Positions 6,116 to 52,232 of a DNA stretch of 64,000 bases are shown in pieces. Below the pieces are notes generated by a model. That model saw only the letters and a program-made list of their open reading frames with translations, searched no databases and was not told the origin of the DNA. Position 1 is the first letter of the stretch. Every line of letters starts with the position of its first letter. The translations under genes and the position numbers were made by a program. Location: assembly GCA_030849805.1 (NCBI GenBank), contig JASANZ010002232.1:22598-86597 (forward strand), read 5' to 3'. This DNA comes from Sergeia podlipaevii. Taxonomy: Eukaryota > Euglenozoa > Kinetoplastea > Trypanosomatida > Trypanosomatidae.

Positions 6116-6147
<32 letters not shown>

Positions 6148-6224
6148 AAGAAGAGGCGTCTGCTCCATTGCGTTAAAGCAGTGAGCGGCGGGCTAATGCG
6201 AACGCACACACACACACAATCTCT
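5435..6224. other. KMP-11 intergenic spacer 4-5 (790 nt)
   Basis: The longest spacer of the array, unique in sequence. It contains T- and A-runs around 5695-5740 and a CT/TA dinucleotide stretch near its right end (annotated separately). No gene recognised. Confidence 0.6.
6113..6147. repeat. CT/TA dinucleotide microsatellite
   Basis: About eight CT units run directly into about eight TA units in the 3' UTR of KMP-11 copy 5. On the sense strand this reads TA-repeat then GA-repeat. Only this copy carries it. Confidence 0.85.
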
Positions 6225-6503
6225 CTACTTGCCCGGGAACTGAGCGTTCTTCTGCTGCTCAAGGAGCTCAGAGAACTTCTGCTTGAAGTGCTCGGAATGC
6301 TCGCCCATCTTCTTGTTGAACTTATCAGTGTGCTCCTGGATCATCTTCTCAAACTTCTCGTAGTGCTCCTTCATCTCGGGGGAGAGAGTGGACTCATCGG
6401 GCTTGTCGGCGAAGAACTTCTTGTTCTGCTCCTCCATCTTCTTGGCGAACTCGGCATCGAGGCGGTCGAGCTTGGCGGCGAACTCTTCGTAGGTGGTAGC
6501 CAT
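6225..6503 (-). CDS. KMP-11: Kinetoplastid membrane protein 11, copy 5 (5'-most copy)
   Basis: The first copy in transcription order. The protein is identical to copies 1-3. The frame stays open for 33 codons upstream of the ATG at 6503, but that stretch is pyrimidine-tract-like (MFFFLFDALSLRSLF). All other copies start at the equivalent MATTYEE, so the shorter start is used here. The leader next to the ATG (TTCAGCC) differs from the other copies, marking this as the array boundary. Confidence 0.97.
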   Translation of the reverse strand: MATTYEEFAAKLDRLDAEFAKKMEEQNKKFFADKPDESTLSPEMKEHYEKFEKMIQEHTDKFNKKMGEHSEHFKQKFSELLEQQKNAQFPGK

Positions 6504-33213: not shown

Positions 33214-35751
33214 TTAGTAGTAGGCTGAGCCCATGTAGCTTGGAGAGGACGCGTCAGGGTAGTGCTGCTGCTGTGGACCCCGTTGTCTCGTCATGACCTT
33301 AGCTCGAGCTTCTTCCATGCTCATCAGCTCTACCCGCTTCTTCATGATGTCCAGTTCAGAAGGCACGCCCACATCGCCACCACAGCCATAGTTGCCGGGG
33401 CGTGGCATGCAAGGTGACGATACAGGCGATGAAGAGCGATAGGGGAATGTGGGGTCAAAGCTCAACGGTGAGCGTGGCTGCTGCTGCTGCCGCTTTGGAT
33501 GTGGGTGCGCACGGTATGGAGCCACACGCCTCAGTCTGGCAGCGGTATCCGCATGCAGACGTTTCTGATGTGCCTCGAGATCGCTCACGTAGCGCTCAGC
33601 TTCCTCCATTGCCGCCCGAGCTGCTGCGGCGGCGACAGTCTGCGAGCTTTCCCGCTCTCCAAGCTGGACAAGGCAATCGCGATACTCCCAGGTGCGTCGC
33701 AGTGTGGCGGCTTCGTGCCTGGCGCGATGAAGTCGGAGATCCTCGCGCACGCGCAGACACTCGTAGTCACGCACTACTGCCTCGTAGTCAACCTCGTTCA
33801 GACGCACTTGTCCGTTGTAAGGGATGTAAAAGTCGCTGCTTGGGGGACAGCGAGGGTGAGATGAAGGCAGCTGAGAATGACCGAAAAGGAATGTGCGATG
33901 CAGCGGGCGAGGGTAATAAGATGAGCGCATATGTGATGGAACCTGTTGTTGCTGCTGCTGCTGCTGTGGTCGCCACGCAAACTGATCCTCCCCCATCGGT
34001 GGAGCCGAGTCATCGCCGTCAGCGCTATCAAGCGCAGCTTCGCCGCTCACATCGCCACCAACACGACGAGCACCCGCGTAGTACAACGGATCTCTTTCAT
34101 GCTGCTGCTGCACAGCAGCCCTCATGCTTGACTCATTCCGCATCTGGCGTTGTCGCGTGCGGCGCCGCATTTTGGCTCGGTATGATCCCGCTCCAGCGCT
34201 TCCCATAGAAAGACGTCGGTCGCGACAGCTACCGCTCATTGCAGGGAGCTCATCCATGAGGAAGTCAACATCCTCCTCGCCGTCGTCTTCTTCTTCGTTG
34301 AGCTCACGAGATGTGTAGCTACCCTCGTCAAACGCACGACGGGCAGACGAGTGAAGCGACTGTGCGCAGCTTGTGCTCGCACGTGTGCGGCTGCACACGT
34401 GATCGTACAGATAGTTGATCGGATTGGTCGGCTTTTTGGCAAAAAGTGAGACTAGCAAGTTTACTGCGAGCGTGTACCCTGGTGAGCTGACAGGAATTTC
34501 TCGGAGCAGTGCTGACATGGCAGCGTCTTCCGGTACCGCCACAGAGGCACCATCCTCGGCCGCATACAAGAGCGCATTCGACGCAGCGGCCTCGTCTCCA
34601 AAGCTCCGCCCTTCCATTCGTATCCATAGAAAGTGCTCTGGATCGTCTGGTTTGCGATCCAACAGCAGATGCGCAATGTCAAGCAGAATGGCACGAGCTG
34701 GGCCTTGTGTAGGAGTCTCAAAAACAAGGCGCTCCTTTACTGTGTCACCCACAGGTGCAAAAGTGAGGGTTTGCTGTGACTGCGCACAGTCACTGTTATT
34801 TGTCCTGTCCTCTGTGACACCGCCTACAGTGGAGACGCCGCTGACTGGGCTACCGCAGCCGACCTTGTTGCTGCTCAGCCCATCCTCCACCGCCGCCCCA
34901 GCCTGAGAAGCCATGTTGTGGCTAGTAAAGCGATCAACGAGAAAGACGTCGGGTTCCTTGGGCTTCATTGCAAGAAGGATTGCCGCTAAGTGTAGCAGCA
35001 TAGGACGGAATCCGCTTCCACAGGCCCCCAGATCCGCCAGCGCAGATGCAGTCTCACTGCCATGCGCCTTGTTGTAGCACTCGACGCTAGGAGACTTGGT
35101 ATCTTCATCCTCGCCAAATGTCACAGGCTCGATGTAGAGGTCTGGCGTGGGGTTCACCTGCACCTTGAGGTTCTCGACACCGCTCACACTGACTGCTCCC
35201 TCGGACGCACGACGACCAAAGCGGCTACTGGAGGGTCCTTGAGAGGTTGGAGAAGACTTGAGCGCAGAGCGGCAGGTCTCAGAGGGAATGCGGTAGACAC
35301 CGCATTCGGTGGGGGCGATGGCGGCGGTCGGTGCTGAAGAGAAAGAAACGCCACTGCCACCACTGGCGACTGTGCCAGCACCGGCGCCAGTAGCATAATC
35401 ATTAAAGCGGAGTTTCTTCGCAGAGGAGGCGCGTGTGCTGCCCGCCTTGCTCGTAGGCTGAGCGCCGACAGAACCAGTTGTAGCGGCCGAAGTTGACGCT
35501 GCTTCACAAACGCATACAGTAGCGAGCGGTGCAACGCCCTGTGACTTGAAGGTGGCATCGTTGTCAAGAGGAGTGCTGGGATTGCCTTCTATGTCGCACG
35601 TAAACAGAGTACAACCGCCGAGAGAGTCGAGCTGAAACGCCTTGGTGATGATTGACATCACAGCGGGAAGAGGAGTTGTGGTATCTGGGACGTCAAAGGA
35701 GACCCGACGAGTGCCAGTGGCATCAGTCTTAATAGCAAAATATGTGGGCAT
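33214..35751 (-). CDS. 845-residue protein with three RIIa/Dpy-30-like motifs and coiled coil
   Basis: 845 codons. Residues 1-85 may be a beta-grasp (ubiquitin/PB1-like) domain (MPTYFAIKTDATGTRRVSFDV). Three similar helical motifs follow: about 248-276 (MLLHLAAILLAMKPKEP), 349-377 (ILLDIAHLLLDRKPDDP) and 424-451 (LAVNLLVSLFAKKPTNP). Each has the pattern LLxxLAxLLL, then (R/K)KPxxPxxFL, which recalls the RIIa/Dpy-30 dimerisation-docking motif. Acidic and basic low-complexity stretches surround them, including a Gln run near 600. The segment from about 655 to 750 (YEAVVRDYECLRVREDLRLH) is a coiled coil; a second short helix (ELDIMKKRVELMSMEEARAK) lies near the C-terminus. RIIa-type motifs are common in flagellar axonemal proteins, so a cytoskeletal or flagellar role is plausible but inferred. 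Confidence 0.78.
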   Translation of the reverse strand: MPTYFAIKTDATGTRRVSFDVPDTTTPLPAVMSIITKAFQLDSLGGCTLFTCDIEGNPSTPLDNDATFKSQGVAPLATVCVCEAASTSAATTGSVGAQPTSKAGSTRASSAKKLRFNDYATGAGAGTVASGGSGVSFSSAPTAAIAPTECGVYRIPSETCRSALKSSPTSQGPSSSRFGRRASEGAVSVSGVENLKVQVNPTPDLYIEPVTFGEDEDTKSPSVECYNKAHGSETASALADLGACGSGFRPMLLHLAAILLAMKPKEPDVFLVDRFTSHNMASQAGAAVEDGLSSNKVGCGSPVSGVSTVGGVTEDRTNNSDCAQSQQTLTFAPVGDTVKERLVFETPTQGPARAILLDIAHLLLDRKPDDPEHFLWIRMEGRSFGDEAAASNALLYAAEDGASVAVPEDAAMSALLREIPVSSPGYTLAVNLLVSLFAKKPTNPINYLYDHVCSRTRASTSCAQSLHSSARRAFDEGSYTSRELNEEEDDGEEDVDFLMDELPAMSGSCRDRRLSMGSAGAGSYRAKMRRRTRQRQMRNESSMRAAVQQQHERDPLYYAGARRVGGDVSGEAALDSADGDDSAPPMGEDQFAWRPQQQQQQQQVPSHMRSSYYPRPLHRTFLFGHSQLPSSHPRCPPSSDFYIPYNGQVRLNEVDYEAVVRDYECLRVREDLRLHRARHEAATLRRTWEYRDCLVQLGERESSQTVAAAAARAAMEEAERYVSDLEAHQKRLHADTAARLRRVAPYRAHPHPKRQQQQPRSPLSFDPTFPYRSSSPVSSPCMPRPGNYGCGGDVGVPSELDIMKKRVELMSMEEARAKVMTRQRGPQQQHYPDASSPSYMGSAYY

Positions 35752-36435: not shown

Positions 36436-39400
36436 TCACCGGTATTCCCGTCGCTCTGGCGGTGGAAACGATTTTTCGTTCCCTGTTGTTGGTAAAGCTG
36501 CAAAGGAGACCTTGGGTCTCAGCGAAATACTCATCAACGGCGCTGCTGAGTTACCCACATTAGGCGAGCTGAGAATTGGGGGTTGCCGTGCTATTGCACC
36601 AGCGCCATCCTTTTCGTCAGAGTCTGCCGCGGCCATAACAAACGAAGGTGCGATGTGTCGTCTACCGCCTTCGCCAACAGTCGTGCCGCCTCTCGGTGTG
36701 TTTGAGGACAACTGTGCGTCCTTCTTCAAACCAACTGGGATGGGCGTGACCCCAGATGCTTCGCCTTGAGTCCCAGCGTCACCTAACGCGTCATACAGAG
36801 GTCTAATGGGGGGGTTTCGCTGTGCCTGGCCTCGACTTAGCGACACCGCTAGACCCGACGAGGCAATTCTCTCCCCACCTCTTGGACTCAACTGAAAGGA
36901 CTGCAAGGGCATGTGCAACGGCGAAGCGTGCAGATAACTACAAAGCGAATCATCAGCAAGTTCACCACCACCGCCTCCAGTGCTACCTCCTGCCACATCC
37001 CCGCTTTCCCTCTCTATCGTGTGTGCAAGCGCGAGCGACGTAAGGGCCTGAAACCGCAGCGGATCCACTCCCACACGCCATTCCTCTGCGTATCTATGCA
37101 CAGCAAGCGACTCGGACACGTCCACGTCAGCAGACGAAAGCCGCAGGCCGCGCGTGCTTGGCAGTAGTCGCAACATGTGAGTTTCTGTCTCCTCCTCGTG
37201 TCGTTTGCGCTTTCCGCTCTTGCTGCTAGGGCGTCTTCCTCCACGATCCGGCACATCATCTCCACTGTCCCTCTCTGCCTCGGCACTGCCATCGATGACG
37301 CTGCCGCTTTGCTCCTTCTCACTACCGCATCTATCATCATCATGTCCTTGCATTGCTGTACGATCATTCGCCCCCTCAGTCACGCCGCCACCGCGATCAC
37401 CGCCAAAGTGAAGAAAGTTTAATGCCGCCGTCCAAAACTTGCGAAGCAACAGCAGCAACGAGAGTGTAGCGACACGTGCACCCTCATGACCCTCAACATC
37501 GTCTCCAGCATCAATGACCTCTTCAGTAGCATTCGCGGTGCCGCTGCCGCCGATGCTAGAGGCGCCAACAAGCTCTGGGAAGCGGGCCTTGAACGCTTTG
37601 CGCAACCGCCAATGAACGATGCGCTGCACAATGAAGACCAGAAGCAGCACCACAAGTGCAGTCACACACAGGACAACGTGCCACCTGATGATGCCACCGT
37701 GAAATTGTTCAATAGTGTGTGCAACTTGAGCTGCATAATCAGCTTGGTACTCCGCGGGGGTGTAAGGATATTCAATGATGGCTACGTAGTATGTTGCTCC
37801 ATCTCTAAGTTCGATGTGAGATATTTTATCCATCTCTTGAATTTCATCACCAAAACCGAGAGCCTCTTGTAGTACCGAGGTTTTCGTCATCGATGAGTGT
37901 AGAGCAAAAAGTGATAAGTACTCCCGCACTCTCTGATCTGCCAGGGCGACATCATATGCGACGGAATCGCGCCACCCCACGCGAAAGGACACGCGCGAAG
38001 GTTGCACTTCATACACTAGAACCTCCACATCTTTGTGTGGTGATGATGATGCGAGGGCCAGCTGGAGCTCAACCATCTGCTGCCACATGCTTTGCGTCGT
38101 CTGGGAGGTGTACAGCGTTAGTGTACCGTACACCAGCTGGCTCACGAGAATGTAGGTATTATAACTCAGCACAAAGCGCAGTTGCCGTACTCCTGTAGCA
38201 GCAAGCGCTGTGGCAGATGGACTAGCCTCACGTATGCCGGCCTGGCAAGTCTGAGACCACGATACAAAAGTGGGCGTGCCTAGTGGAGAAAGGGTATCAG
38301 TTCCCAAGGGATCAAAGGTTGGCAAAGGCTCAAGGCCAGCTGGTACCAATTTTTCACCGAGGCAAACGGACGCACGCCGTGTCGCGTCTGGCACTGTCAC
38401 TTCAATCGTGGCATGCAGCTTGTTTGCGCTTGGATTCTCCTGAGAAATACTACCTTTCGGTTCAAAAGTCAACTCTTCTACAATCAGTTGAAACGCGTCA
38501 GGGTGGACGTCAATGGGGAGCTGCAGCTTTAGTGTGCCCTTTATACCAGGTACGGTGCGCACAAACGTGAGGGGAGCCATACAGGTCTTGCCGTGAACGT
38601 ACTTGGTGCATACCGTTGTAGTTGCAAAGACTACGGGTGAAGCCAAGGGAGAATGCGCGCTGAATGTGCTTTCCTTGAGAGTGCTGTCGATGCTGCTGCC
38701 AGGACGGGAAGGTGTGGTCAACTCTGGAGTAAAAGATATAGTGAAGTTGGGCATAGGGGGTAGACGGCTGTCCAAGTCCTTTAGAAACAGCTGCACTGCC
38801 GTGAGCCCTGTACAACGAGAGAGGGTAGAGCAGTCAGGCATGAGCTGGCACATAGCCGTATCCACAGTGCTAAATAGAGGGTCTGTCATCATGTACGTTA
38901 TGGGCCGCAGCGGATCGCTGATATTGGCAACAAACAACGTGTTGTCGATATCGCAGACGATGGTGTCGCGCCACGGCAAAAATCCGTTCGATGATGGGAT
39001 CGGACACTTCTCGCTGAACAGCCACAGCACATGCTCTCGACCCCACTTCCAAGGGGAAGCAGCAGAAGCAGCGAATTCGAACGCGTCACGGCCAACATAC
39101 GCAATCTGTTTGAAGTGAATCGTGGCCAGCGAGGACGAGCTGCGGACCCCGACAGAGCCCATCACTGCTGCGGCAAGAAGTTGTACTCCAGGCTTCGTGC
39201 TCTTGTCGACATCTTTCCCTATGGGGGCACACTCCTTGGTGCCAACAGAGCCAAACAGAACCTTGGATACAGAAATTTGGCCAGCGACACGGTACTCGCT
39301 ATCGGCTACTGGCCGCGTGATCACTGTCGCACGGTCGTAGTCCAGATATACTGACCCATATGAGGGAGAAACGAGTATCCCAGCGTAGTGGTACCGTGAG

Positions 39401-42400
39401 CTTAAAAATGACCACGCCCCGCAGCCCACGTCGTCATTGGCGTTACCAGAGCGTGAGAAGAGAACACTAGGTTGGCACGGCGCAAGCGCAGCGTGCTGAC
39501 ATGACTGAAACGCTGATACATACGACTCCTCAATGTTCATGAGTCCGGTGCTGTGCGCTGGGGTAAGCGATAGAGCCAAGCCAATTGGATTTGCAAAAAT
39601 GTCACAGTTGACAATCAACAGGGTGTTTACACTGTAGCTAAACACACCAACAAAGCGGTTTAGATACACACTCAAAAATGAAAAGGCTTCGTGAGGAAGC
39701 ACTTGCAAGCTTTCTTTAGTATGCCTTACATCGTCACCACTTGCCTCTTTCTCTCTCGTGACATAAAGATCGTCTAATGCTAACACGAAGAGACCAATGA
39801 AGTTGCTATGTGCGACAAGTCGTATGGTGCGGGAGGAGCCGATGTATGGAAGGCACAGGCCCTCACTTTCAGAGCCGGCAGCAACAAAATCACAAATTAC
39901 CGCTTCTCCAAACCCCCGATTGAAGAGACTACAGAGTGACTCCACAGACGCCTCTGAGGGTGACACCGCATCGGCAGACCCCGGAAGCAGCATTTCTCTT
40001 CTCCTATCCACTTCTATCTCATTCGTGATGGTGGTGGATGTGCTACTGCCACCGCTCTCCACATCAGCATCATGAACGCGGTTTCGATAATAGCGAGTGC
40101 CAGCCACGATGGTACCACGTATGTGACTCAAAATGTGCCCCTCCAACACCAACCCTCCACCAAAGCTTTCCCACACCACACTATCGAATATATAGAGAAC
40201 TTGGCTTGCAGCAGGGGTATATAGCGCGGGGCCGTAGCTGTGCTCAATGACTGTGCTGGCAAAAGAAACGTGCCCGTGAAGGGGCACGTTAACGTACACC
40301 GCGGGCACAAAAAAGAGCTCCGCGCCGATGCTGCCATCAGTAGCCCCTGCGGGGGCTTCTTTGACGGCTTTGCTGCTGTAATTAGTCGATGACGCTTTCA
40401 TGATGCCACCTTGGCCAAAATAACGAAAGGAGATACCCTTTGAGGTAAAGTTGGTAGAGCCAAAGGTAGGCTCGAGATAGCTGCGCGAGGCAACAATCAC
40501 TCGGCATGGTGGCAGCTTCACGCCATCAACAACAGTGCTACCGGAGTAGTGGCGCGACATACACACAAATTCAACCGTCTTGGTCAGACTCACCACCTCA
40601 CTAAACACGTCAGGCGAGCTTGTACGCAGCACGTCGCGGAGTCCGCTCACACCATGAGGATGTGACCACCCTTCCCCAGTAAGAGGTGTTCGTGTGTCAA
40701 TGTTAACCTCATAGCCACCTTCTTCAGGTATTGGCAAGTTATCAGATAGCTGTACAGGCTTCACAGAAAAACTGACGTTTGATGCTGTCACACGTCGTAC
40801 CTCGGCCTCATTAAGATCACTCGAGCTGCTTGTGATGCCGACCAAATCTCCGTTTCTCCATGGGTGCTGTGACGCGTCCCACTCACTGGGTGGCACAAGC
40901 TGCGTTTCTCCTCCTTGCCCATCTTTATCAAACGTCCACTTAAACCACTCTGGCTGCCACCATACAGTGCCGTTAGCTGTGGAAAGTGTACCATTCTCAT
41001 CAATGAAGGGGTGCATACCGTCATGATGATAAAGACTGCGTAGCGGCGGCAAATGCGCATCCCCCGCCCTCACCACCCCTGCTGCCTTCCACGTCGTTGG
41101 CGCATTCGTCAAACCCTCCAGCAGCGCAGTTCCGGGGACGAAGAAGGTACCGCATTCAAGAAGCGTGTTTTCGTCTAGGCGCAAGGGTGCAAGTCGATTC
41201 ACCTCGCCATCGCTTGTTTTCTTCAAGCACATGGACCCACCAAGCTCGATGCGGACGGGCGAATAAGAAGCGTTAGAGGCGCGTATAGAAAACGACCCTA
41301 TCACCACAATTGTCTCGGCCTTCAAGACGATGCCCGTCTGTTGATATGAGTCAAAAGTCGTGTTGAGATAAGAGATGGTGAGGGTACCATACACCAGCAG
41401 CGCACCTGGCACCGTTGCGTTCTCACACAACTGTACACTGTGCCCCACTGGGATCACAAACTGTCGGCGGTCTATGTTTATGACAGAGCTATCAGAGTCC
41501 TCTTCAAAAAGCCATGGTGCTCCGCTTCCCTGCCACGCATCCTCATCGTACCAGTCATATGTACCATCCTTCTGAGGTTGTCGACTTTGCTGAAGAGAGG
41601 GGAGTTTGGAACCACTGCATCGCTCCTCGAGCTGCTTGCATCTATGAGTTTTGATGTACGTCGTCACTTCCGGCATCTTCCACAGTGTATTGGGCAAGGC
41701 ATAGCCAGGCTGCAGGCGCGACAAAGAGGTCGCTGGCACGGAAGCCCTGGAAGAGACATCGTTCACATCGATGGAGGAAACGTCATTGAGACGCAGCGCA
41801 ATACTGGCCAGCGCCGGATAGTACCCCTCGACGTCTAGCAGCGCTTCACCCACAATGCCAGAGCCTCTACTCTCTACGTACGTCAAGAAAGCCGTCGTTG
41901 CTGTTTCTGTATCATGCTCATTGATGCTGCGGACGTCAAAGGTGAGAGGGCTGATGGCAAAGTGGAACAGCGTGTACACAGATCCCTTTCCCTCGTGCGC
42001 AGTGAAACGCGCAGCTACCCCCTCCGGATAGCAATGATATCCATCTCTATCGCGGTAGGAAAACGTAGCATTGTGCTGAGAAGTGCTCATGAGCTGCTGC
42101 AACTTGGTGTAAAGGGTGCCTGCTGCGCTGGAGATGCCTTTAGTGCTGTCTTTAGAAAAAGGAATGAACTCAAATGGAGGGGGCTTACGTGGCCCTGACG
42201 GGGTCTCATCCACGAGAAAGAACAGAGATAATGGGAGCATAACAGTGCCGCCACGTGCACGAGATCTGACAAAGTAGGACTGCATTCGCACATCAAAGAC
42301 ACCCTCTGGGTAGCCAAACGTTGCAAAAAGAACGTTGCATTGCGCAGGTCCTCCGGTGCCCGCTGTGTCGAGGGTAACAGTTAGAATCGTTGGTATGTAC

Positions 42401-45400
42401 GACGGCGCGTGGCATGTGATAACGTCGGTAGCGCGTCTGTTGGTTTGATCTATGATAACGCGAGCGCCTTCGGGGTCGGTGTACCACACGCGGGTGTAGG
42501 ATGCCTCGTACTCTGATAGCTGCGCCACACGGCACCACGGCGCATTCGCAAGGTACGGTGCCCCGACGAAAAGGTGTGTGTCTCTCTTGGTCTTGAAGAG
42601 CACTCCGGTAAGGTCATGCACAGTCACCGTGTCGCCTAACACAACGTACTTCCCGTGAATATTTGTATCGGAGTGAAACAACTCTATAGAGATAATGCGG
42701 ACAGTGAGAAAGTACGCTGCAGCGGTTCGCTCACAGGCGGAGTTAGACACCAACGGAACCGCCGCCAGCATGATGGCTGCCGTGGTCGAGTTATCTGCAA
42801 AGTCTCCCACTAAGAAAAGATTCGTAATATCAATGTGGCCGCCATGGATTGCCTGCAGTCCAATTCGTTGACTCACCCTCGCAGAAGTGTCATTATTGCT
42901 TCTGCTGGTGTCGTGATTTAACTTCGGTACATCCCATAAAACAACGCTCTCAAATCGGTGTGCGATGTTGGAAAAATCAGCGAAGATGTGTGCCCTACCA
43001 CAATCTGCCACTATCGCATTTGTCACCCTGTATCCAGACGATGGCGGCAAGTAAAGGCCATGCAGAGCAACTGAGGAGATAAACAGATTGTCAAACTTTC
43101 CAGCGCGCTGCACGTTCGGACCCACCTCATCGGCTAGTGGCATCTCTGTCTCTTCTCTGTATGACTGTTCCTCCTGTTCACCATCGGTGGCACAGTCATC
43201 GTCTGCAGATGTGTCAAAACCTTGGTTGCCTTCTTTCTTGTCAATCGCATCATCTGCAAACGGAGAAGTCATTAAGTCACGTTGCGAGCATGTGCCCCCA
43301 TTGCTGCTTACATGCAGAGGAAAGATGAAAATGCCGTGCTCCGAGGTGCCGTAAATGTAGATGTACAATACTCGCTCTAAGCTCTGTGAGGAGGAGCAGA
43401 TGTGTGTTGTCGAAGGTGTAAAGAGACGTCGTAGAGAGATCCATACTCCATGCCCGCGCGTATGCAATAGCATTAACTGCTCCAACATCACGGACGCAGA
43501 GGAAAGAAAGATACCTGCAGCAACGGTGTCAATGCCACCAGTATGCAGGCCGGTTTCTACCGTGTACATTCCAAATAGAATGAGCTTTTCATGCCGCGCG
43601 CCAATGACTGCGATACCAGTTCCTTCTGTCCTTAGAACAGACACCTCGGAGAGAAACAATTGCTGAGTCTCGGTGAGTGTTATACCGCGATGATACGTGT
43701 CGTGTACGACGCACATCAACATCGCGACTGTAGCGGTAGGGTAGTTAACCTTGTCCACCCATATAGCGGATCCGTACCGGGTGCCGCGCTTGCCAGCTCT
43801 GTACACCTCGACGGAAGCCAAATCATTGCCGCTACCTTGCAAATGAATAGTAGCACCAACGCCGGTAGACTCAGACTCGGCATCGCCACGAATGACAATT
43901 GTACGTGTCAATAAGACTACCTCAATGCCCCACATGTTATTTAATAGAGGCACCGTTTGATTCATGGTGTACGCGTTTCGTGGCATCCCATTCAACTTCC
44001 CGTTACTAATTGAGGGAAAAGGGGAGTGTGTGTAACGTAGCGGCTCATCAAAGGAAATTATCGAGTAACTACTGCCATCCACGCGCTTGGTAATGCGACG
44101 CACCTCCGTCTTGAAACTCTCCACCTCGTGCTTGCCTCCATCCCTTCCCCAATCCTCCGCGTCACCTCCATCATCGGTAACGACGCCGCTAATGGCAATC
44201 TCATCCCCTACTGTCCAGCTGACTGCGGCGGAGACAGATACAGACGTCTCGCCAGCATACGTAACATTCCTTAAAGAAGCACGTGCAATCTTAGGCACAG
44301 CACCGTGCAACTGAATACTTCCACCTTTTTCAACGGAGAGATGCTTCACCTCCGTCACCCCACTACCGCGTGCTCTATCGAAGACCAGAGAGGTGGAGGT
44401 TTGGACAGGGTCGCCAAACGTAATTACTTTGCCGGCGGTGCTTCTCGCAGCAACCTCATCGGTGCCCGTACGATCGCGCGCAAAAACGGCCTTGTTTGCA
44501 GCAAAGCCTTGTCCATCAAAACCATCTCCGCTCCCCTCACTGTCCTTCAGAAGCGCAACTTCACCAGAGTGTCCAGTGAGGGTAATGATAAAGCGATACG
44601 GAAGCGGCGAGTACACGCTGCCAGCAATCAAAGACCCGTTGGTGCCAATAGTGATGCGCCGCGCGATGAGTTCGATAGAGGTTTCAGAAGTTTCAGGTAA
44701 GATGAGAACGCCATCCACAAGCAAAGACCGCAGCGGAGGAGGTGAAACGTCAAGCAGCACGCGCATCTCTGAAGCAACGTAAACATCACTGCCGAGAGTA
44801 GGAATGTCTGAGCCAAGCCACGCCAAAAACGCTGACCACGCCACCGCAGCGTAGAAAGGCTGAGCAGCCAAAAAAAGCGCATCTCCGCGGGGATTGTCAT
44901 CGCGCCAGGCGATGCCGTTAAGCACCTCGGTTGCTACGTGTCCATCCAAGTGACACACTATATTGCTTCCATTCAGAAATTTGGGAATACATGCAACGCC
45001 ATCCAGCACAATTCTCTCAATGGCATCCAAGCTATCTCCAAAGGACTTTCCAACAATGGTCACCGAGGTGCCGATGGCAGTAGCAAGAGCCGCCAAAGGA
45101 TTGAAGCCCATCACTAACGGTGTCTCCTCTACCACATAGCGGTAGGAAGCACAGCCCACGCCAGTGATACTAGGACACGAATGTAGCTCCTCCTCCGCGT
45201 TTTCTCCTTTCAATTTCGATGGAATGGAAATCAAATCTACGGGGCACATCCCATCCGCATTGAGGCCAACTTGGTACCCGCTCACCTCAGTGCCTGTGAT
45301 GGCAATAGAATCGTCCGTGGGAAATCCCTTGCACCGCAGCATCCAATAAGATGAGGAGATCAGCCTCTCTTCAACACTATCATATGGGATGTCAAATGTG

Positions 45401-48400
45401 TTGATGCCTATACTCAGCGGGCGCCAACGATAGGCGGCGCTCACAGTCAACTTGCGATACCCATTTTCCTCATCGATTTCATATCTAAATAAACCGCACG
45501 TCGCATTTGCAACGGTAAGCTCGCTGCCTTCAGGGTTGGAAGCTTTCGCCTTCCTATGATCCAGCCGAAGAGAGATATCGTGTAGGTAAAGGCGAGAGTG
45601 TTGCATTGCAATGAGTGCTATCGCAAATTCGCCGGTCGAAGATGGCAGCACCACATCTGGTTCCTCATCAATCATTTTCCCAAATGGCACTGCCGTGTCC
45701 ACCGAGGTAGTGGCGTAAACCTGCTCCCTTCTTGAACTCCCAGTGGAGTCTGTCACGGTTGTTGTCGTGAAGTGGTTCAGTTTCTTCCATGTGGCCTTCA
45801 GCGTATTCAGCACTTTCCTGGGATCAGATTCTGATTCAATCATTTCAACAAGGAAGCGGGGCGCGGTGCTGTAGAACGCTGCAAAGCCTGTACGAAGTCG
45901 TGGAAAGAACAAAACATTCATGTACTCACGCAAAAACCACGAAGAAATATGTTCGGGCACCTTGCACTGTATTTCGCCTTGCGCATTGGCACCCAAAACT
46001 TCGCATGGGCGGCCGCACACGTTGATGCGCAACACATCTGAGAGTGCACGCCCTTCCATGGAGCGCACATTGGTGCCGACCAAGGTAATGACTCGGCGCG
46101 CAAAGTAACCGCCACTTTCCGGTTGCACCACGGCAGGTGTGACAGTGAGCGAAAATGAAATGGCCGAGGGTGCGGAGTTGCCATAGTTCCTTGAGTGCAA
46201 CGTGATGTGATCCGTCATAAGCAAATGCGAGGAGGAGGAAGTGTCAACAATGAGGAGCTCATCCGACATCACCAGCGACTCCAGTACATCAGAGCCGTAG
46301 AGAACAAAGAGAGAGGTGAAGATGGAATTATCAGTCGCGACTTCAACGAAGCCATCTTGCGTCAATTGATGCATCTCTTCCCATGATAATTGCAATGGTG
46401 ACGCCAAAGCGCTGTTCTGAAACCGAGTACCAACTATTGCCACGTGCGTGTTCACAATACCCTCATTTGGCGACACAGATAATATTTTAGGAGCCACCCC
46501 AGCAAGATATCTGTAAATGCAGCATGACGCCTCCATCTTCGTAGCAGTGTTGCGCACGGTCACGACCCCTTTGATATCCCCATGTCCTACAGCGGAAGTG
46601 GTGGTGCACCAAAGCTCCGTTGCAGAGGCGGCCGTCACCAAACATGGGAAGCCGCTCACCGTTACCTCGAGTACGCTCAATCCCACAGGAAAGCCACTTC
46701 CGAATAGTCGAAGCGCTTGGCCTCCTTCAGCAAAACCTTTATTGTGCGAGATCCTGTGCAGACTCATCGTACACGTAAAGTGCAAAGAGGATGGGCCACC
46801 CTCTCCGAGAGTGCTGCCATACTCGTCAGTGACGAGCCTCACGGTGGTGTTGGGAAAGGTATTGTAGCATGGCTTCAATAAAACGCATAGGATCCTTGTG
46901 TTCGTCATCTTTACAATTTCGCATCGGCCGTTCCCCACATCGATGTGGGCACCAACGCGCAGGTCTGGCGAGTAACGCAGACGCGTAAAGCCGGCGCCGT
47001 ACACCGCAATCAACATCGGGGCCTGCCCAAAAATTGGAGATATGGAAGTGATGGTAGGGATGCTCGACTGTGGAAGCACACGCACCTGGCAGAGGGTGGG
47101 AACGCTAATACTAATTGATACCGTGAAGTAGCCGCCACGTGTCATAAACGACAAGTCTGGGGAGGCGACAGTGATACTGGTTTCGGTGTACTCAAGAATT
47201 GGCACTGAGAGAGCCAACGGGTCGATTGGTACTTGCGCAATTTGATCGCCCTCCTGCACCATGGCCTCCACTTCAATGGGGTGTTCGGCGTCGCGCTCTA
47301 TTGCAGTGTAGGCGAGAACAGTTGCTCTAGTGTGCGACCATGGATAGAGCGAGCGGCCAACAAGAGTAAAGTTGAGGTTACCGTGCTGGTACACGACCTC
47401 GGAGCCACACGAATCGATCTCGCAGTCTGACATGATAGAGAACGGCGCTCCGTTTTGATGTGGTTTCTGTGAAACAAAAACATCGTACCTGCCGCGGGGT
47501 AGCACATCAGACACGCGGCAGTCAATCGTAGTACCGGAAAAGCGAATGGGCAGGCACTGCACGCACGTGCTTGTTAGAGCAGCAACGTGGACAAAGGTGG
47601 ATCCAATGGCGTTCTTCTTTAGGCACACGAGTACTGTGTGCGAGTTAAGATTTTTGCCCGTGATGACAAGCACTGGAGATGGATCCAGGCACGACACAAC
47701 AGCCGGGGTGACCGATTCGATCGTGGCAATAATGTTTGTGTATGGCACGTATAGATCCATATTCCCATCGGTCCCCGTACCGGTGGTGATAGATTGAGAG
47801 AGCGTTTCTCTACCCGAGAAATCATTGTAGTGCACTGTAATGTTGAGAGGTATGTGGTAGAAGCCAGTGAGAGGGTTGGGCCCATGGTCAAGTGATAATC
47901 GCTCCAAAGCGTGTAGTGGAAGCTTTGGTGTTTTGCACGTCATAGTTCTAGCAGTACTCGTGATGATTTCACATACGTACGTCATCTCTTCTTCAAGCAT
48001 GTCAGCGGCACGCCCAAGGCGAACTGTGAGTGTCTCCATGGAAGCCAGCGGGAGGTTATTGCCTCTAATCACCAGCGTTGACGCGCCAGCGACCGTAGAG
48101 GCGGGAGATGTGCTGTAGTCAGCAAGGGTGACGGAAATGACGCGCGAGGACACGTGTATAGCGAGGCCGCACAAAACTGAAATGCTGCCGTAGTCGGGAG
48201 ATGACACAATGACACCCAAGTCCCCGCCAGGGACATCCTTCGTGATGGATAAGAGGGCTAGATCGCTCGAGAGCAGCTCAGCAGTGATAGCAGAGATGGG
48301 TGCGCCTGAGATACTACTAAACGTGTTACTAATTATGTTTCGTAGGCACCTGATGCGTCTAACAGGCCCAAGGTGTACCTGCAATGTAGAAATGGCGGTG

Positions 48401-51400
48401 GGCACAAACGCATTGGGCAATCCATCTTGCACATGCTGGCTACGATAGGCATTGTACCAGAAAGAAGAGCCGTGAAGGTACAAGTGCTCGTCTGATGAAG
48501 GATTCAGTTCATTATTAGTTACCTTGGATATTAAGTTCACACTCGGCTCATGCCGTAACTTGGCCAGCGATGTGTCCACAATGGTGAAGATTAGTAGCTC
48601 ACCAGTGTGCACCGCAGCCGGCATCCCCTCGCCTCGTCGCGTCCCGTCTACTACAACATCCACGCAATACTGGTAAATCTGCTGCTCGGGTTCTGTATCT
48701 ACCATAACTAGGGCGTCGAGGTCGGTCATGGCGATGGCGGCAGCCAGTGGAACACGCATCTGCAAAGCAGAAATAGGATCCATAAAGCCTGAGCGGGTGC
48801 CACAGTACACCTGGTGTACAGCAATATTGTGGCTGTCGATCCCCACATCCTTTGTTCTATCACTGAGCCCTGCGCCATCCTCCGGTAGAACGGAATATGT
48901 AGTGTGTGCACAGAGCGACTTCAAGCTTTTGTGATGGGTCATATCGGCGTTGAACGAGTAGGCAGCAAACCAGTGGCAGCGACTGTTTTTCACGGTGCCG
49001 CCGCCGCTAAAAAAGCTGCTGCCGTCCCGCCAGCGGCGGCCCACATCGCTATCCGAGAAGAGAAGAAGATCAACGTGTGAGTTCACGCACTCCTCCTCGG
49101 TGGCTACAGAAGAAACAAGCAATGAGGAGTCTGGGTAATAAAGATCTGAGCTGACGTTGAAGAAGATGCGGAGCGGGTGGAGATGCCGCGGCATCTTCTT
49201 TGTCATCCCAGTGTAGTTTTGCGAAGCCCTCTTCACATCTGCTGAAAAGAAAGATGGGGAAGGATCATGCAATGCCCTGCTGACCTCCATGATAAGCGCG
49301 CCGGGCAGATCGCGCGACGAGCGTGTGGGCGGCCCCCAGTTTGCCGATGATGATGATGATGATGATGATGATGTATCCAACGACGCGGCAGCAACAAAAA
49401 GAGATTCTATTGTTTCGTTTTGTTCACTGTCGGCTTCTAACACGCGCGCCTCCAGCGCCACACCGCAGGAGGAGAAACGGAAGCGAGTGATGTTTGACAC
49501 TTGTGAAGCGCTGTAAGTGCAGGAAACGTTAAAAAGAGCCCGAGAAAGATTTGCCATCTCGTACACGCTCGTAACATCACGAAATGGTGAGTCAACAACG
49601 GGCACCTTGCACGCAGTGAACGTGTCTACTGTACTTGTTCGTAGTAACGGGCGTCCGTTACGCAGTCGTGTGCCATCGTGCGCTACGTCCACGACGACCT
49701 GATCGCTATCGCCAAAGCAGTGCGGCCGATAGGTGCCGTTGAACATTGCCTGAAATACAAAGCTGTACACAAATGTGAAGCGCGTAGCTGGCGCTGATAA
49801 CGGTGTTTCTGACCGCGCCATCCAAGGCTCAAAAAGATTGCTGTACTGCTCATATATGTGCACAGGACGAAAGCGTGAGCTATCCACAATACGGACTGGA
49901 AATCCAGGGATCGGCGTTGTGTTGTCATCAGCGAACACGTAAACCGCCACGCCGGAGCCACATGATTCAACTGTGGCCTTCGTTGCGTCGTCCTCACTGC
50001 GCGTGCCTCTTCTCCGAGACGTTGCTGCCTTCCTAAAGGCCACAGTGCATGATACCTTTGAGGATGAAGCGGAAGTCACCACACAGTCACCCTCCGCAGT
50101 GTCATTAGTCTGAAGTTCAAAAAGCGGTATGCTTTTGTTGCTCTCGCGAAGCTCTTTAGACGCAAAGGTGGTGCGTACAGGACGCAAGTACACGCGCACC
50201 TTATACTCCTCCTGTTCCTGGTCCTCTCTAACGTCGCCTAGCTCATCAGTGCTTACGTCAATCAAGGACGACTGCAGCGCCATTCCACGAGGAAATGCGC
50301 CCTCTATGCTTAAAGTATAATCCCACTTAGCGCGCGAGTCTGCCGAGTTGGCTAAACGCAGCCCTTTGTTGTGACAAATGCGATGCACGGACGGTAACAC
50401 AGTGGTCATGGCCGTCTTGTCCAGCTGAGGGAGTACTTGGAACAGGGAGTACGCATCCTTTGGTGCGTACAGAGATCGTGCTAGTACCGAAGTTTCCATG
50501 TCCCCGGTCACCTCTCCTAGCGACCACAGGGCAGACACATTGGCGGCAAAGCCCTCATCTGGCACTAGCGTGTAGTGGGCCAGAAGCACATCCTGCAGCA
50601 GGTGTGCTGTGCTGGCTGACACCTCTCCAGCTGAGCCCTGAGTAGAGGTAGCCGCCATCCTCCCTTCCTTCTGCTCTTCCTGGTCGTAGTGTTCATCTAC
50701 TAGACGGATCATCTGAACCGGTGCGTAGGTGATGCTGCCCAGTCGTGCGCTATAACGCTGAACCAACGCCTCACGCTCCTGCAAGGCCTGGTCTGCACCA
50801 ACCTGCGTGTAGTTTTGCTTGTTCATGATGACAAGACACTGGCGGGGGAGTGAGGCAGATGATGATGATGGTGGTGGTGGTAGATGAACAGCAGTCTGTG
50901 CTGAATCCACACGAAGCCGCGACGCGAATGGCAAGCGCGCTGTGAGGGCAGGCCATTCTGAAACCGGCAGGACGTCATCCAGTAATGGGAGCACCCGCAC
51001 ACGAGTCTGCATCACCGCCACTGGCGCTGTCACCCCAAGCAGAACGGGAGTAAAGTCTGAACGGCGCATGAGAAAAGGCCGTCCTTCATTCCCATCTAGA
51101 AAAAACGTGACCGTTTGCTCTCCTGCATTTGCAAGCGATATCACAGTGTCTAGCACGCCGTCGGCGTTGCTACCAGCAGAACGTGGACTTACCGCATAGG
51201 CTGATGGAAGTACTGAGATCTTTAAAAATTGCAAAGACAGTGTAACGGGAGTACTGACTCCCTTCGCACATGCGGCAGCAGCATTGGTAGAGAGCGTGCA
51301 CCAGTTGGTAGGAAGTTTTTCTGGACTTTGCGGGATGTAAGGAAGTTTGAGCGTGTAGCCATCGTTTTCAACCCTAAAGCCATGTACCTGCACACCGTCA

Positions 51401-52185
51401 ATAAGCACGCTGTCTGGATGCCTCAAAAGACTATCAATGATGAAGGTGGCCCCAGATAGCGTGGTACCGTATCCAATGTACCCCGATGGCTCTGCGGATA
51501 GAATGACGTAATTCGGGGTATCAATATTCATTAACCTTATGTCGCTGGTATTTATTGAGCTACTAGATCTCGCCTCAGATGCCACAGGCTCCTTCTTTGA
51601 AGAAAGCATTGCCAAGTTTATCGAAGAAGAAGGAGAAGAAGGAGAAGAAGGTGTCTGCAACACTGAGGCAGAGGTCATAGAAGGTGACGAAAGCGACGCT
51701 GTAGTGGTGGTACGGGTAGCGGAAAATTGTAAAAGCAAATTTGCATCTGCCGCGGCTATCTTCTCAGACATGAGGTGTGGTTTCAACAACATAATGGCCG
51801 ACTGCCCAGCGTTAGATAAGGATCTCGGCAAGTGGTGACCTATATTATTATCGTCGAGGGGCTTCCTCGAAAATGTGGAAGCACCGCCGTCTTTCCTAAC
51901 TTGCTGGTTGCCTGATGCCGTGCGTAAAGAAAAAAGATTCGCGTACAGAGACTCACGTGCTTGCTCTAGTACATCAGATAAAACAGAAGCGTCACCTTCA
52001 TGGCTTCTTCGCGCGTCACCCAAGGAAGCCGGACAGCTATCATCATTAACTTCAAGTTCCGTTGTGTCCATGAATGATGCTGCAGTTGCTAGACCGCAAG
52101 AGTAAAGCTCGCTCCAGGGCCACGATAGACCCAGTAGAAGCAGCAGCACTACAAAAGCGTGAAGGCGTACTGAAGGAGACCTCAT
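36436..52185 (-). CDS. Giant fibrocystin-L (PKHD1L1)-like type I membrane protein
   Basis: 5249 codons without interruption. The frame is open to 52203, but the first codon there is GTG and a splice acceptor AG sits at 52203-52204, so the ATG at 52185 is the start. Domains: signal peptide (1-35, FVVLLLLLGLSW); a large N-terminal ectodomain; IPT/TIG domains in about 1345-2435, recognisable by starts such as TITSISPIFGQ (about 1705), KILSVSPNEGIV (1900), LTVTPAVVQPESGG (2015) and VMGFNPLAA (2357); G8 domain 1 at about 2449-2538 (GSDVYVASEMRVLLD); beta-helix/PbH1-like sequence; G8 domain 2 at about 3545-3652; a second beta-helix region (about 3970-4030); a transmembrane helix at about 4836-4858 (VVLCVTALVVLLLVFIVQ); and a 390-residue cytoplasmic tail. 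The order and number of G8 domains match animal fibrocystin-L and polyductin (about 4000-4250 residues), which are ciliary or stereociliary surface proteins. A flagellar or pocket surface role is inferred. Confidence 0.9.
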   Translation of the reverse strand: MRSPSVRLHAFVVLLLLLGLSWPWSELYSCGLATAASFMDTTELEVNDDSCPASLGDARRSHEGDASVLSDVLEQARESLYANLFSLRTASGNQQVRKDGGASTFSRKPLDDNNIGHHLPRSLSNAGQSAIMLLKPHLMSEKIAAADANLLLQFSATRTTTTASLSSPSMTSASVLQTPSSPSSPSSSINLAMLSSKKEPVASEARSSSSINTSDIRLMNIDTPNYVILSAEPSGYIGYGTTLSGATFIIDSLLRHPDSVLIDGVQVHGFRVENDGYTLKLPYIPQSPEKLPTNWCTLSTNAAAACAKGVSTPVTLSLQFLKISVLPSAYAVSPRSAGSNADGVLDTVISLANAGEQTVTFFLDGNEGRPFLMRRSDFTPVLLGVTAPVAVMQTRVRVLPLLDDVLPVSEWPALTARLPFASRLRVDSAQTAVHLPPPPSSSSASLPRQCLVIMNKQNYTQVGADQALQEREALVQRYSARLGSITYAPVQMIRLVDEHYDQEEQKEGRMAATSTQGSAGEVSASTAHLLQDVLLAHYTLVPDEGFAANVSALWSLGEVTGDMETSVLARSLYAPKDAYSLFQVLPQLDKTAMTTVLPSVHRICHNKGLRLANSADSRAKWDYTLSIEGAFPRGMALQSSLIDVSTDELGDVREDQEQEEYKVRVYLRPVRTTFASKELRESNKSIPLFELQTNDTAEGDCVVTSASSSKVSCTVAFRKAATSRRRGTRSEDDATKATVESCGSGVAVYVFADDNTTPIPGFPVRIVDSSRFRPVHIYEQYSNLFEPWMARSETPLSAPATRFTFVYSFVFQAMFNGTYRPHCFGDSDQVVVDVAHDGTRLRNGRPLLRTSTVDTFTACKVPVVDSPFRDVTSVYEMANLSRALFNVSCTYSASQVSNITRFRFSSCGVALEARVLEADSEQNETIESLFVAAASLDTSSSSSSSSSANWGPPTRSSRDLPGALIMEVSRALHDPSPSFFSADVKRASQNYTGMTKKMPRHLHPLRIFFNVSSDLYYPDSSLLVSSVATEEECVNSHVDLLLFSDSDVGRRWRDGSSFFSGGGTVKNSRCHWFAAYSFNADMTHHKSLKSLCAHTTYSVLPEDGAGLSDRTKDVGIDSHNIAVHQVYCGTRSGFMDPISALQMRVPLAAAIAMTDLDALVMVDTEPEQQIYQYCVDVVVDGTRRGEGMPAAVHTGELLIFTIVDTSLAKLRHEPSVNLISKVTNNELNPSSDEHLYLHGSSFWYNAYRSQHVQDGLPNAFVPTAISTLQVHLGPVRRIRCLRNIISNTFSSISGAPISAITAELLSSDLALLSITKDVPGGDLGVIVSSPDYGSISVLCGLAIHVSSRVISVTLADYSTSPASTVAGASTLVIRGNNLPLASMETLTVRLGRAADMLEEEMTYVCEIITSTARTMTCKTPKLPLHALERLSLDHGPNPLTGFYHIPLNITVHYNDFSGRETLSQSITTGTGTDGNMDLYVPYTNIIATIESVTPAVVSCLDPSPVLVITGKNLNSHTVLVCLKKNAIGSTFVHVAALTSTCVQCLPIRFSGTTIDCRVSDVLPRGRYDVFVSQKPHQNGAPFSIMSDCEIDSCGSEVVYQHGNLNFTLVGRSLYPWSHTRATVLAYTAIERDAEHPIEVEAMVQEGDQIAQVPIDPLALSVPILEYTETSITVASPDLSFMTRGGYFTVSISISVPTLCQVRVLPQSSIPTITSISPIFGQAPMLIAVYGAGFTRLRYSPDLRVGAHIDVGNGRCEIVKMTNTRILCVLLKPCYNTFPNTTVRLVTDEYGSTLGEGGPSSLHFTCTMSLHRISHNKGFAEGGQALRLFGSGFPVGLSVLEVTVSGFPCLVTAASATELWCTTTSAVGHGDIKGVVTVRNTATKMEASCCIYRYLAGVAPKILSVSPNEGIVNTHVAIVGTRFQNSALASPLQLSWEEMHQLTQDGFVEVATDNSIFTSLFVLYGSDVLESLVMSDELLIVDTSSSSHLLMTDHITLHSRNYGNSAPSAISFSLTVTPAVVQPESGGYFARRVITLVGTNVRSMEGRALSDVLRINVCGRPCEVLGANAQGEIQCKVPEHISSWFLREYMNVLFFPRLRTGFAAFYSTAPRFLVEMIESESDPRKVLNTLKATWKKLNHFTTTTVTDSTGSSRREQVYATTSVDTAVPFGKMIDEEPDVVLPSSTGEFAIALIAMQHSRLYLHDISLRLDHRKAKASNPEGSELTVANATCGLFRYEIDEENGYRKLTVSAAYRWRPLSIGINTFDIPYDSVEERLISSSYWMLRCKGFPTDDSIAITGTEVSGYQVGLNADGMCPVDLISIPSKLKGENAEEELHSCPSITGVGCASYRYVVEETPLVMGFNPLAALATAIGTSVTIVGKSFGDSLDAIERIVLDGVACIPKFLNGSNIVCHLDGHVATEVLNGIAWRDDNPRGDALFLAAQPFYAAVAWSAFLAWLGSDIPTLGSDVYVASEMRVLLDVSPPPLRSLLVDGVLILPETSETSIELIARRITIGTNGSLIAGSVYSPLPYRFIITLTGHSGEVALLKDSEGSGDGFDGQGFAANKAVFARDRTGTDEVAARSTAGKVITFGDPVQTSTSLVFDRARGSGVTEVKHLSVEKGGSIQLHGAVPKIARASLRNVTYAGETSVSVSAAVSWTVGDEIAISGVVTDDGGDAEDWGRDGGKHEVESFKTEVRRITKRVDGSSYSIISFDEPLRYTHSPFPSISNGKLNGMPRNAYTMNQTVPLLNNMWGIEVVLLTRTIVIRGDAESESTGVGATIHLQGSGNDLASVEVYRAGKRGTRYGSAIWVDKVNYPTATVAMLMCVVHDTYHRGITLTETQQLFLSEVSVLRTEGTGIAVIGARHEKLILFGMYTVETGLHTGGIDTVAAGIFLSSASVMLEQLMLLHTRGHGVWISLRRLFTPSTTHICSSSQSLERVLYIYIYGTSEHGIFIFPLHVSSNGGTCSQRDLMTSPFADDAIDKKEGNQGFDTSADDDCATDGEQEEQSYREETEMPLADEVGPNVQRAGKFDNLFISSVALHGLYLPPSSGYRVTNAIVADCGRAHIFADFSNIAHRFESVVLWDVPKLNHDTSRSNNDTSARVSQRIGLQAIHGGHIDITNLFLVGDFADNSTTAAIMLAAVPLVSNSACERTAAAYFLTVRIISIELFHSDTNIHGKYVVLGDTVTVHDLTGVLFKTKRDTHLFVGAPYLANAPWCRVAQLSEYEASYTRVWYTDPEGARVIIDQTNRRATDVITCHAPSYIPTILTVTLDTAGTGGPAQCNVLFATFGYPEGVFDVRMQSYFVRSRARGGTVMLPLSLFFLVDETPSGPRKPPPFEFIPFSKDSTKGISSAAGTLYTKLQQLMSTSQHNATFSYRDRDGYHCYPEGVAARFTAHEGKGSVYTLFHFAISPLTFDVRSINEHDTETATTAFLTYVESRGSGIVGEALLDVEGYYPALASIALRLNDVSSIDVNDVSSRASVPATSLSRLQPGYALPNTLWKMPEVTTYIKTHRCKQLEERCSGSKLPSLQQSRQPQKDGTYDWYDEDAWQGSGAPWLFEEDSDSSVINIDRRQFVIPVGHSVQLCENATVPGALLVYGTLTISYLNTTFDSYQQTGIVLKAETIVVIGSFSIRASNASYSPVRIELGGSMCLKKTSDGEVNRLAPLRLDENTLLECGTFFVPGTALLEGLTNAPTTWKAAGVVRAGDAHLPPLRSLYHHDGMHPFIDENGTLSTANGTVWWQPEWFKWTFDKDGQGGETQLVPPSEWDASQHPWRNGDLVGITSSSSDLNEAEVRRVTASNVSFSVKPVQLSDNLPIPEEGGYEVNIDTRTPLTGEGWSHPHGVSGLRDVLRTSSPDVFSEVVSLTKTVEFVCMSRHYSGSTVVDGVKLPPCRVIVASRSYLEPTFGSTNFTSKGISFRYFGQGGIMKASSTNYSSKAVKEAPAGATDGSIGAELFFVPAVYVNVPLHGHVSFASTVIEHSYGPALYTPAASQVLYIFDSVVWESFGGGLVLEGHILSHIRGTIVAGTRYYRNRVHDADVESGGSSTSTTITNEIEVDRRREMLLPGSADAVSPSEASVESLCSLFNRGFGEAVICDFVAAGSESEGLCLPYIGSSRTIRLVAHSNFIGLFVLALDDLYVTREKEASGDDVRHTKESLQVLPHEAFSFLSVYLNRFVGVFSYSVNTLLIVNCDIFANPIGLALSLTPAHSTGLMNIEESYVSAFQSCQHAALAPCQPSVLFSRSGNANDDVGCGAWSFLSSRYHYAGILVSPSYGSVYLDYDRATVITRPVADSEYRVAGQISVSKVLFGSVGTKECAPIGKDVDKSTKPGVQLLAAAVMGSVGVRSSSSLATIHFKQIAYVGRDAFEFAASAASPWKWGREHVLWLFSEKCPIPSSNGFLPWRDTIVCDIDNTLFVANISDPLRPITYMMTDPLFSTVDTAMCQLMPDCSTLSRCTGLTAVQLFLKDLDSRLPPMPNFTISFTPELTTPSRPGSSIDSTLKESTFSAHSPLASPVVFATTTVCTKYVHGKTCMAPLTFVRTVPGIKGTLKLQLPIDVHPDAFQLIVEELTFEPKGSISQENPSANKLHATIEVTVPDATRRASVCLGEKLVPAGLEPLPTFDPLGTDTLSPLGTPTFVSWSQTCQAGIREASPSATALAATGVRQLRFVLSYNTYILVSQLVYGTLTLYTSQTTQSMWQQMVELQLALASSSPHKDVEVLVYEVQPSRVSFRVGWRDSVAYDVALADQRVREYLSLFALHSSMTKTSVLQEALGFGDEIQEMDKISHIELRDGATYYVAIIEYPYTPAEYQADYAAQVAHTIEQFHGGIIRWHVVLCVTALVVLLLVFIVQRIVHWRLRKAFKARFPELVGASSIGGSGTANATEEVIDAGDDVEGHEGARVATLSLLLLLRKFWTAALNFLHFGGDRGGGVTEGANDRTAMQGHDDDRCGSEKEQSGSVIDGSAEAERDSGDDVPDRGGRRPSSKSGKRKRHEEETETHMLRLLPSTRGLRLSSADVDVSESLAVHRYAEEWRVGVDPLRFQALTSLALAHTIERESGDVAGGSTGGGGGELADDSLCSYLHASPLHMPLQSFQLSPRGGERIASSGLAVSLSRGQAQRNPPIRPLYDALGDAGTQGEASGVTPIPVGLKKDAQLSSNTPRGGTTVGEGGRRHIAPSFVMAAADSDEKDGAGAIARQPPILSSPNVGNSAAPLMSISLRPKVSFAALPTTGNEKSFPPPERREYR
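49343..49371. repeat. GAT trinucleotide repeat inside the giant gene (poly-Ser)
   Basis: Nine to ten GAT units on the plus strand read as TCA/TCATCA on the coding strand and encode a Ser run near residue 938. It is a likely length-polymorphic site. Confidence 0.85.
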
Positions 52186-52202: not shown

Positions 52203-52232
52203 CTGTGAATAATAATAAAAAAGAAATAATAA
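52203..52232 (-). promoter_or_regulatory. Predicted trans-splice acceptor of the giant gene
   Basis: On the minus strand, a T-rich tract (TTTCTTTTTTATTATTATT) ends in CACAG with AG at 52203-52204, leaving a 17-nt leader before the ATG at 52185. It excludes the six-codon GTG-initiated extension. Confidence 0.7.

Follow-up and report, generated by a model that had tools for sequence, protein, structure and literature searches.

A giant fibrocystin-L-type protein of the trypanosomatid Sergeia podlipaevii lacks the polar cluster conserved in most other relatives

We analyzed a 64,000-nucleotide (nt) stretch of the Sergeia podlipaevii genome (GenBank assembly GCA_030849805.1, contig JASANZ010002232.1, positions 22,598 to 86,597; hereafter the window), which carries a giant gene for a protein of the fibrocystin-L (PKHD1L1) type. 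The most conserved polar cluster that we noticed in the first beta-helix of this family, His-x-His/Glu-Asp...Glu, is gone from the encoded protein and from its four closest relatives. The likely explanation, in our view, is an inherited euglenozoan fibrocystin-L-type ectoprotein whose site has been dismantled and whose second G8 domain has eroded, and which acts at the surface as a scaffold or adhesin, without catalytic activity.

Gene, relatives and domain order

An initial annotation, made from the letters of the window, had proposed a 15.7-kb uninterrupted gene, and a single open reading frame (36436..52185, reverse strand) indeed runs for 5249 amino acids (aa) from its ATG in the standard code with no inner stops. 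A pyrimidine-rich tract closed by CACAG ends 17 nt upstream of this ATG and probably has the expected shape of a trans-splice acceptor, so an in-frame GTG just upstream is an unlikely start. The N-terminal hydrophobic run was read by eye and falls below the cut of our hydropathy scan, in which the sole peak above the cut (residues 4835–4853) agrees with the single transmembrane helix proposed earlier. Because this peak ends at residue 4853, the tail measures 396 residues; it is long, as proposed, but not the 390 residues first given. Before the helix, the protein has 33 N-glycosylation sequons and 82 cysteines. Scanning the 23.4-Mb genome (576 contigs; match counts are lower bounds) gave at least one G8 match and at least three TIG matches, the latter all inside the giant gene, and no second copy of it.

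Using residues 2440–2760 as the query (E<=0.01), we found 58 relatives. The closest were Porcisia hertigi JKF63_01203 (P0004, 4937 aa) and P0005–P0007 (5386–5559 aa), which are collinear with the window protein from about residue 219 to 4315 (P0004 from 546). They are 28–29% identical to it over 4166–4677 positions, compared to 45–58% among themselves. All five proteins have a long tail with a common short YxxxWR-type motif (RYAEEWRVG in the window protein); beyond residue 4870, the tail comparison covered these five only. The remaining relatives were fibrocystin-L/PKHD1L1-type proteins from fishes, amphibians, echinoderms, a mollusc, tunicates and rotifers, and the non-animal ones included P0033 (labelled Mayorella) and Diplonema papillatum DIPPA_26072 (P0058). 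No Leishmania, Trypanosoma or Bodo names occur among the 58 listed proteins. Because a longer query (residues 1750–4750) matched nothing and a 1001-residue piece matched only two metagenome proteins (P0002 and P0003), this absence is merely suggestive and we claim no loss. In a tree of 33 rows, the five proteins grouped together with support of 100/100 and were adjoined by P0030, an environmental protein of 2980 aa (99/98). Given rooting outside, Diplonema and P0049 came next to these six (80/72). P0030 ends about 330 residues past its second G8 domain and is possibly a free-living kinetoplastid intermediate; it is nonetheless counted in several of our sets, including the 54 'other' giant relatives used below.

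Pfam detected TIG in five stretches (E = 3.1e-25) and G8 in one (residues 2456–2540, E = 2.3e-16), while neither a second G8 domain nor a beta-helix rose above its cut-off. A TIG profile derived from the 54 other giant relatives picked out eight rows of the window protein above 3 bits, compared to 1.1 bits for the best of 21 controls (one reversed, 20 shuffled). Dropping a 20-residue row (700–719, 3.2 bits) leaves seven, in keeping with the several IPT/TIG domains described at the outset. Profile–profile comparison of the TIG part to the N-terminal parts of 11 of the 54 relatives gave P = 8.1e-35. No PA14 insert was matched by Pfam at E<=10, and the N-terminal 1340 residues are very divergent; PA14 is accessory, not defining, being listed in 18 of the 58 relatives.

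For G8, we built a profile from segments of G8/CEMIP-type proteins encoded at 74 loci of bacteria and archaea (L005–L078, including Gammaproteobacteria, Planctomycetota and Alphaproteobacteria) together with P0002 and P0003. It placed the first domain at residues 2449–2544 (42.3 bits), close to the earlier estimate of about 2449–2538. The domain's end (2612–2637) lies after an insertion and scores −2.2 bits alone, and the profile–profile alignment reaches residue 2653. The second G8 domain was invisible to Pfam even at E<=10 and scored 2.8 bits with the same profile (residues 3575–3639; best control −2.3). When a profile of the five proteins was compared to the second-G8 profile of the 54 relatives, residues 3539–3712 were the second-best place (P = 1.4e-4). 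The earlier position (3545–3652) was a good estimate for a domain that is weak when taken alone. All 54 other relatives have two G8 domains above 20 bits, whereas P0004–P0007 have one each (54–62 bits).

BLAST found no match between the two halves of the window protein. In repeat-to-repeat comparisons with 25 of the 54 relatives, repeat 1 of the five proteins matched repeat 1 (P = 3.9e-51) ahead of repeat 2 (P = 2.5e-38), and repeat 2 matched repeat 2 (P = 4.8e-20) ahead of repeat 1 (P = 7.7e-7), with reversed and column-shuffled controls at P = 0.0065 or worse. The halves thus follow the family's repeats in order, which bears out the fibrocystin-L/PKHD1L1-type identity first suggested, and the whole second repeat is firmer than its G8 domain alone. 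The beta-helix-type sequence that had been claimed was below the Pfam cut-off, but a structure model of repeat 1, built from 16 sequences, matches TMEM2 (8c6i). Structure prediction thus helped for the first repeat only: the AlphaFold2 model of the second half had a mean predicted local distance difference test score of 30 and was not used, and a PDB sequence search with the second part returned no match. Within the five proteins, 127 of 537 full columns of beta-helix 2 are invariant. Overall, the family features are present: a TIG array before the first G8 domain, then a TMEM2-type beta-helix, a second repeat (detected by profile–profile comparison only) and one C-terminal transmembrane helix.

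The Porcisia protein P0004 is the nearest named counterpart, collinear over window residues 546–4315 (23.5–30.9% identity per piece; 28% over 4166 positions) and with a transmembrane peak near its C end and a long tail, but apparently with a short N terminus. Diplonema P0058 comes from a free-living euglenozoan and has a TIG array, a gap, TIG, two G8 domains, a CEMIP beta-helix, one transmembrane peak and a C-terminal tail. It differs in its length (3688 aa), 11 TIG matches, two full G8 domains (99.0 and 71.8 bits) and intact RYPIHFH and EDGVE motifs. Animal PKHD1L1 proteins (Perca P0010 and scallop P0029) have the same TIG–G8–beta-helix–G8–beta-helix order and a transmembrane peak near the C end, but 13–14 TIG domains, two full G8 domains, two CEMIP_beta-hel stretches and an intact cluster. 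TMEM2/CEMIP2 (8c6i) and CEMIP have the fold of the window protein's first G8/beta-helix, but consist of one unit without a TIG array and with another topology; TMEM2 has kept its HxH. The tail of human PKHD1L1 is described as very short (PMC13424714). By the description in the same review, polyductin (PKHD1) has a broadly similar domain order but carries PA14, SEA and a ciliary-targeted tail that is unique among vertebrate proteins (PMC13424714).

Loss of a conserved polar cluster

The loose motif RYPxHxH in the first beta-helix occurs in 48 of the 54 other giant relatives but in none of the five proteins of the trypanosomatid group. Aligned columns tell the same story: each histidine of His-x-His is present in 50/54 others, and the Glu, Asp and Glu of GxxFxEDGxE in 52/54, 52/54 and 53/54, respectively, compared to 0/5 for every one of these residues in the group, which has W or L, D or Q, I, G, and H or D instead. 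Among the cluster's neighbours, two glycines and one arginine are kept in 5/5 and one histidine in 4/5, while the EDG glycine and the GQ glutamine (54/54 in the others) are changed in all five. P0030 is likewise without the cluster, yet has a near-canonical G8 domain. Partly changed motif histidines were also seen in P0023 (rotifer, YPIYFR), P0059 (tunicate, YPIYFN), P0032 (frog, YPINFH) and P0050 (YPIHFY), perhaps as independent partial losses. Of 76 prokaryote-type proteins (P0002, P0003 and those of the 74 loci, with some truncated at contig ends), 52 have a YPxHxH motif.

One report describes His2479 of PKHD1L1, the counterpart of His552 in TMEM2, as belonging to a possibly catalytic nickel-finger site (PMC11043200). 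The best reading of the alignments is that a putative metal site has been dismantled in the trypanosomatid proteins, with the fold and part of the scaffold retained.

Function and competing explanations

From these patterns we infer surface exposure, vertical descent, a non-catalytic state and an adhesive or coat role. A fibrocystin-L-type protein would have been inherited vertically within Euglenozoa as a type I ectoprotein, its stacked TIG domains and both TMEM2-type G8/beta-helix units projecting from the cell surface. One helix would anchor it, and the cytosolic tail of about 400 residues would sort or further anchor it. In the trypanosomatid line, the polar cluster would have been dismantled and the second G8 domain eroded while the fold and a partial scaffold were kept, leaving a glycan- or matrix-binding coat. 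As the family's polar cluster is gone, binding or coat building is likelier than catalysis, and its role at the surface is probably structural rather than enzymatic. Trypanosomatid surface families are amplified, whereas no second copy of this gene was found, which favours a structural role over antigenic variation.

Several observations weigh against this explanation. The Foldseek alignment of the repeat 1 model to TMEM2 has a TMq of 0.44 and a root mean square deviation of 8.4, and seven alginate-epimerase rows have Z scores slightly above that of TMEM2 over about 300 residues. The second G8 domain alone reaches an HHalign probability of 52%. No profile match was found for the first ~1340 residues in the N-terminal parts of 11 relatives (best P = 0.086) or for residues 4310–4870 in the C-terminal parts of 25 (best P = 0.2), and Pfam matched no SEA domain before the transmembrane helix. 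The tree carries a long-branch warning (the window branch is 1.6) and supports the euglenozoan grouping weakly, and the trypanosomatid assignment of P0005–P0007 follows from their grouping with Porcisia. The RYPxHxH motif is also absent from 6/54 other relatives, and it is by chain numbering that His552 would be one of its histidines. Among the sources used, the nickel-finger label for His552/His2479 appears only in PMC11043200, and the TMEM2 structure paper states that an active site could not be assigned (PMC10206443).

Of the alternatives, a coat of the flagellum or flagellar pocket with an ancestral ciliary function survives best, though we consider it doubtful. The ectodomain would coat the membrane there and the tail would direct it; surface traffic of trypanosomatids is routed through the flagellar pocket, and the common tail motif could serve as a sorting signal. 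A flagellar or pocket site is possible for the protein, but no result of our analysis points to the flagellum, and the juxtamembrane part is unmatched in the relatives compared. The family also includes the Mayorella-labelled protein, and Mayorella is an amoeba without flagella, although this label comes from a transcriptome and prey contamination is possible. Stereocilia, for their part, are actin protrusions and not cilia. One family member, PKHD1L1, is described as a coat protein of stereocilia (PMC6707252), and one vertebrate paralog, polyductin, as ciliary (PMC13424714). However, the ciliary targeting motif of polyductin lies in a C-terminal tail without counterpart in PKHD1L1, whose tail is given as 9 residues (PMC13424714). 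The ancient flagellar-surface function and conserved ciliary coat proposed in the initial annotation are thus unsupported.

It is unlikely that the protein is still an enzyme acting on surface or host glycans through an active site independent of the lost cluster. In structure comparison, the beta-helix fold is also that of polysaccharide lyases, epimerases and hydrolases, and the active site of TMEM2 is itself unassigned in the published structure (PMC10206443); nevertheless, the most conserved polar cluster is missing from 5/5 group proteins and from P0030. Far less probable is a TIG–G8 protein that arose convergently or was gained horizontally from bacteria, with no link of descent to animal fibrocystin-L. 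Prokaryote G8/CEMIP-type proteins are common, and the 1001-residue query matched proteins of prokaryote type only. However, P0002 and P0003, the two that were scanned, have one G8 domain each, whereas the window repeats match repeats 1 and 2 of eukaryote-type proteins in order and the TIG–G8 order is common to Diplonema and the Mayorella-labelled protein. An ordinary CEMIP-type enzyme of bacterial origin was rejected as well. Fast divergence and the eroded second G8 domain might suggest a functionless pseudogene in progress, but this is scarcely credible and was rejected in view of 5249 open codons, four collinear long relatives and the invariant columns even in beta-helix 2; a chance open reading frame was likewise rejected.

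Returning to the surface scaffold, P0030 adjoins the trypanosomatids and lacks the cluster despite its near-canonical G8 domain, and we therefore propose an early conversion. Tentatively, and with rather less confidence than in the scaffold itself, a fibrocystin-L ectoprotein that handled both glycans and metal in the euglenozoan ancestor may have passed to kinetoplastids and become purely a surface scaffold there, either before the transition to parasitic life or early in it. If so, the protein would offer a built-in 'site-dead' comparison for what the conserved cluster does in PKHD1L1 and TMEM2, and through the common tail motif it could organise the trypanosomatid surface or the matrix of the flagellar pocket.

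Coordinates, neighbouring genes and significance

Table 1 Features of the giant gene and its protein, in window coordinates
Feature	Position	Strand	Basis
Whole gene, 5249 aa	36436..52185	-	Open reading frame and collinear relatives P0004–P0007
Pyrimidine-rich tract closed by CACAG; likely trans-splice acceptor	52203..52227	-	Sequence read; function inferred
Signal-peptide-like N terminus, ~residues 1–38 (MRSPSVRLHAFVVLLLLLGLSW...)	52072..52185	-	Read by eye
TIG/IPT array, residues 1360–2418, ~7 divergent domains	44932..48108	-	Pfam, TIG profile, profile–profile
G8 domain 1, residues 2449–2655, insertion ~2545–2611	44221..44841	-	Pfam, G8 profile, profile–profile
TMEM2/CEMIP-like beta-helix 1, residues 2656–3081	42943..44220	-	Profile–profile P 3.9e-51, structure model
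W-V-D, residues 2809–2811, aligned with His-x-His of RYPxHxH	43753..43761	-	Alignment
Degenerate G8 domain 2, residues 3539–3712	41050..41571	-	G8 profile, profile–profile
Beta-helix 2 region, residues 3713–4223, AGSESEG motif	39517..41049	-	Profile–profile P 4.8e-20
Single transmembrane helix, residues 4835–4853	37627..37683	-	Hydropathy
Cytoplasmic tail, residues 4854–5249	36439..37626	-	Hydropathy and five-protein comparison

Elsewhere in the window, a tandem array of five genes (2525–6503, reverse strand) encodes a 92-aa protein that we take to be KMP-11; four of the proteins are identical and the fifth (5156–5434) has a single Gly to Ala change. The window's L12 has its best solved match in 4v8m, presumably the T. 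brucei ribosome, and together with the five array copies this supports the trypanosomatid host recognised from the start. A protein kinase reading frame (25672–26448, reverse strand) begins at Pkinase profile position 46, with the start of the domain missing from its first ATG, and is possibly a truncated gene in an AT-rich stretch. The long flanking frames 53188–55443 and 33214–35751 (-) had no Pfam match at E<=0.001. Other neighbours encode a kinesin, an ArfGAP, a longin/synaptobrevin SNARE, an adenosine-deaminase family protein and a class 3 lipase.

Trypanosomatids are single-celled flagellates whose genes are readily tagged and removed, and the group includes the sleeping-sickness parasite. 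Protist relatives of the family are already known in general: a review places putative orthologues in lineages ranging from green algae to vertebrates (PMC13424714), a marine flagellate has listed annotations of fibrocystin-L and G8 (PMC7852580), and the Porcisia protein bears the database name 'G8 domain-containing protein'. Novelty is therefore limited to the trypanosomatid variant. Among the papers listed by full-text literature searches (25 of 5,423 in one case, and most judged from titles), none concerned a trypanosomatid G8/fibrocystin protein; papers mentioning both fibrocystin and trypanosomes were dismissed as holding unrelated passages, and the protein's terms were absent from the main text of kinetoplastid structure-annotation, Diplonema proteomics and Porcisia genome papers. 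This is a known family with a derived trypanosomatid variant; what is new is the loss of the cluster, together with the prospect of dating it through P0030 and Diplonema.

In mice, fibrocystin-L is reported in the stereocilia coat and as required for normal hearing (PMC6707252), and a conserved PKHD1L1 histidine is changed in a family with hearing loss, with unclear effect (PMC11043200). A lineage that has the giant scaffold minus the cluster separates scaffold from site. The family extends to trypanosomatids and, with genes there so easily tagged and removed, a coat function would be directly testable in them.
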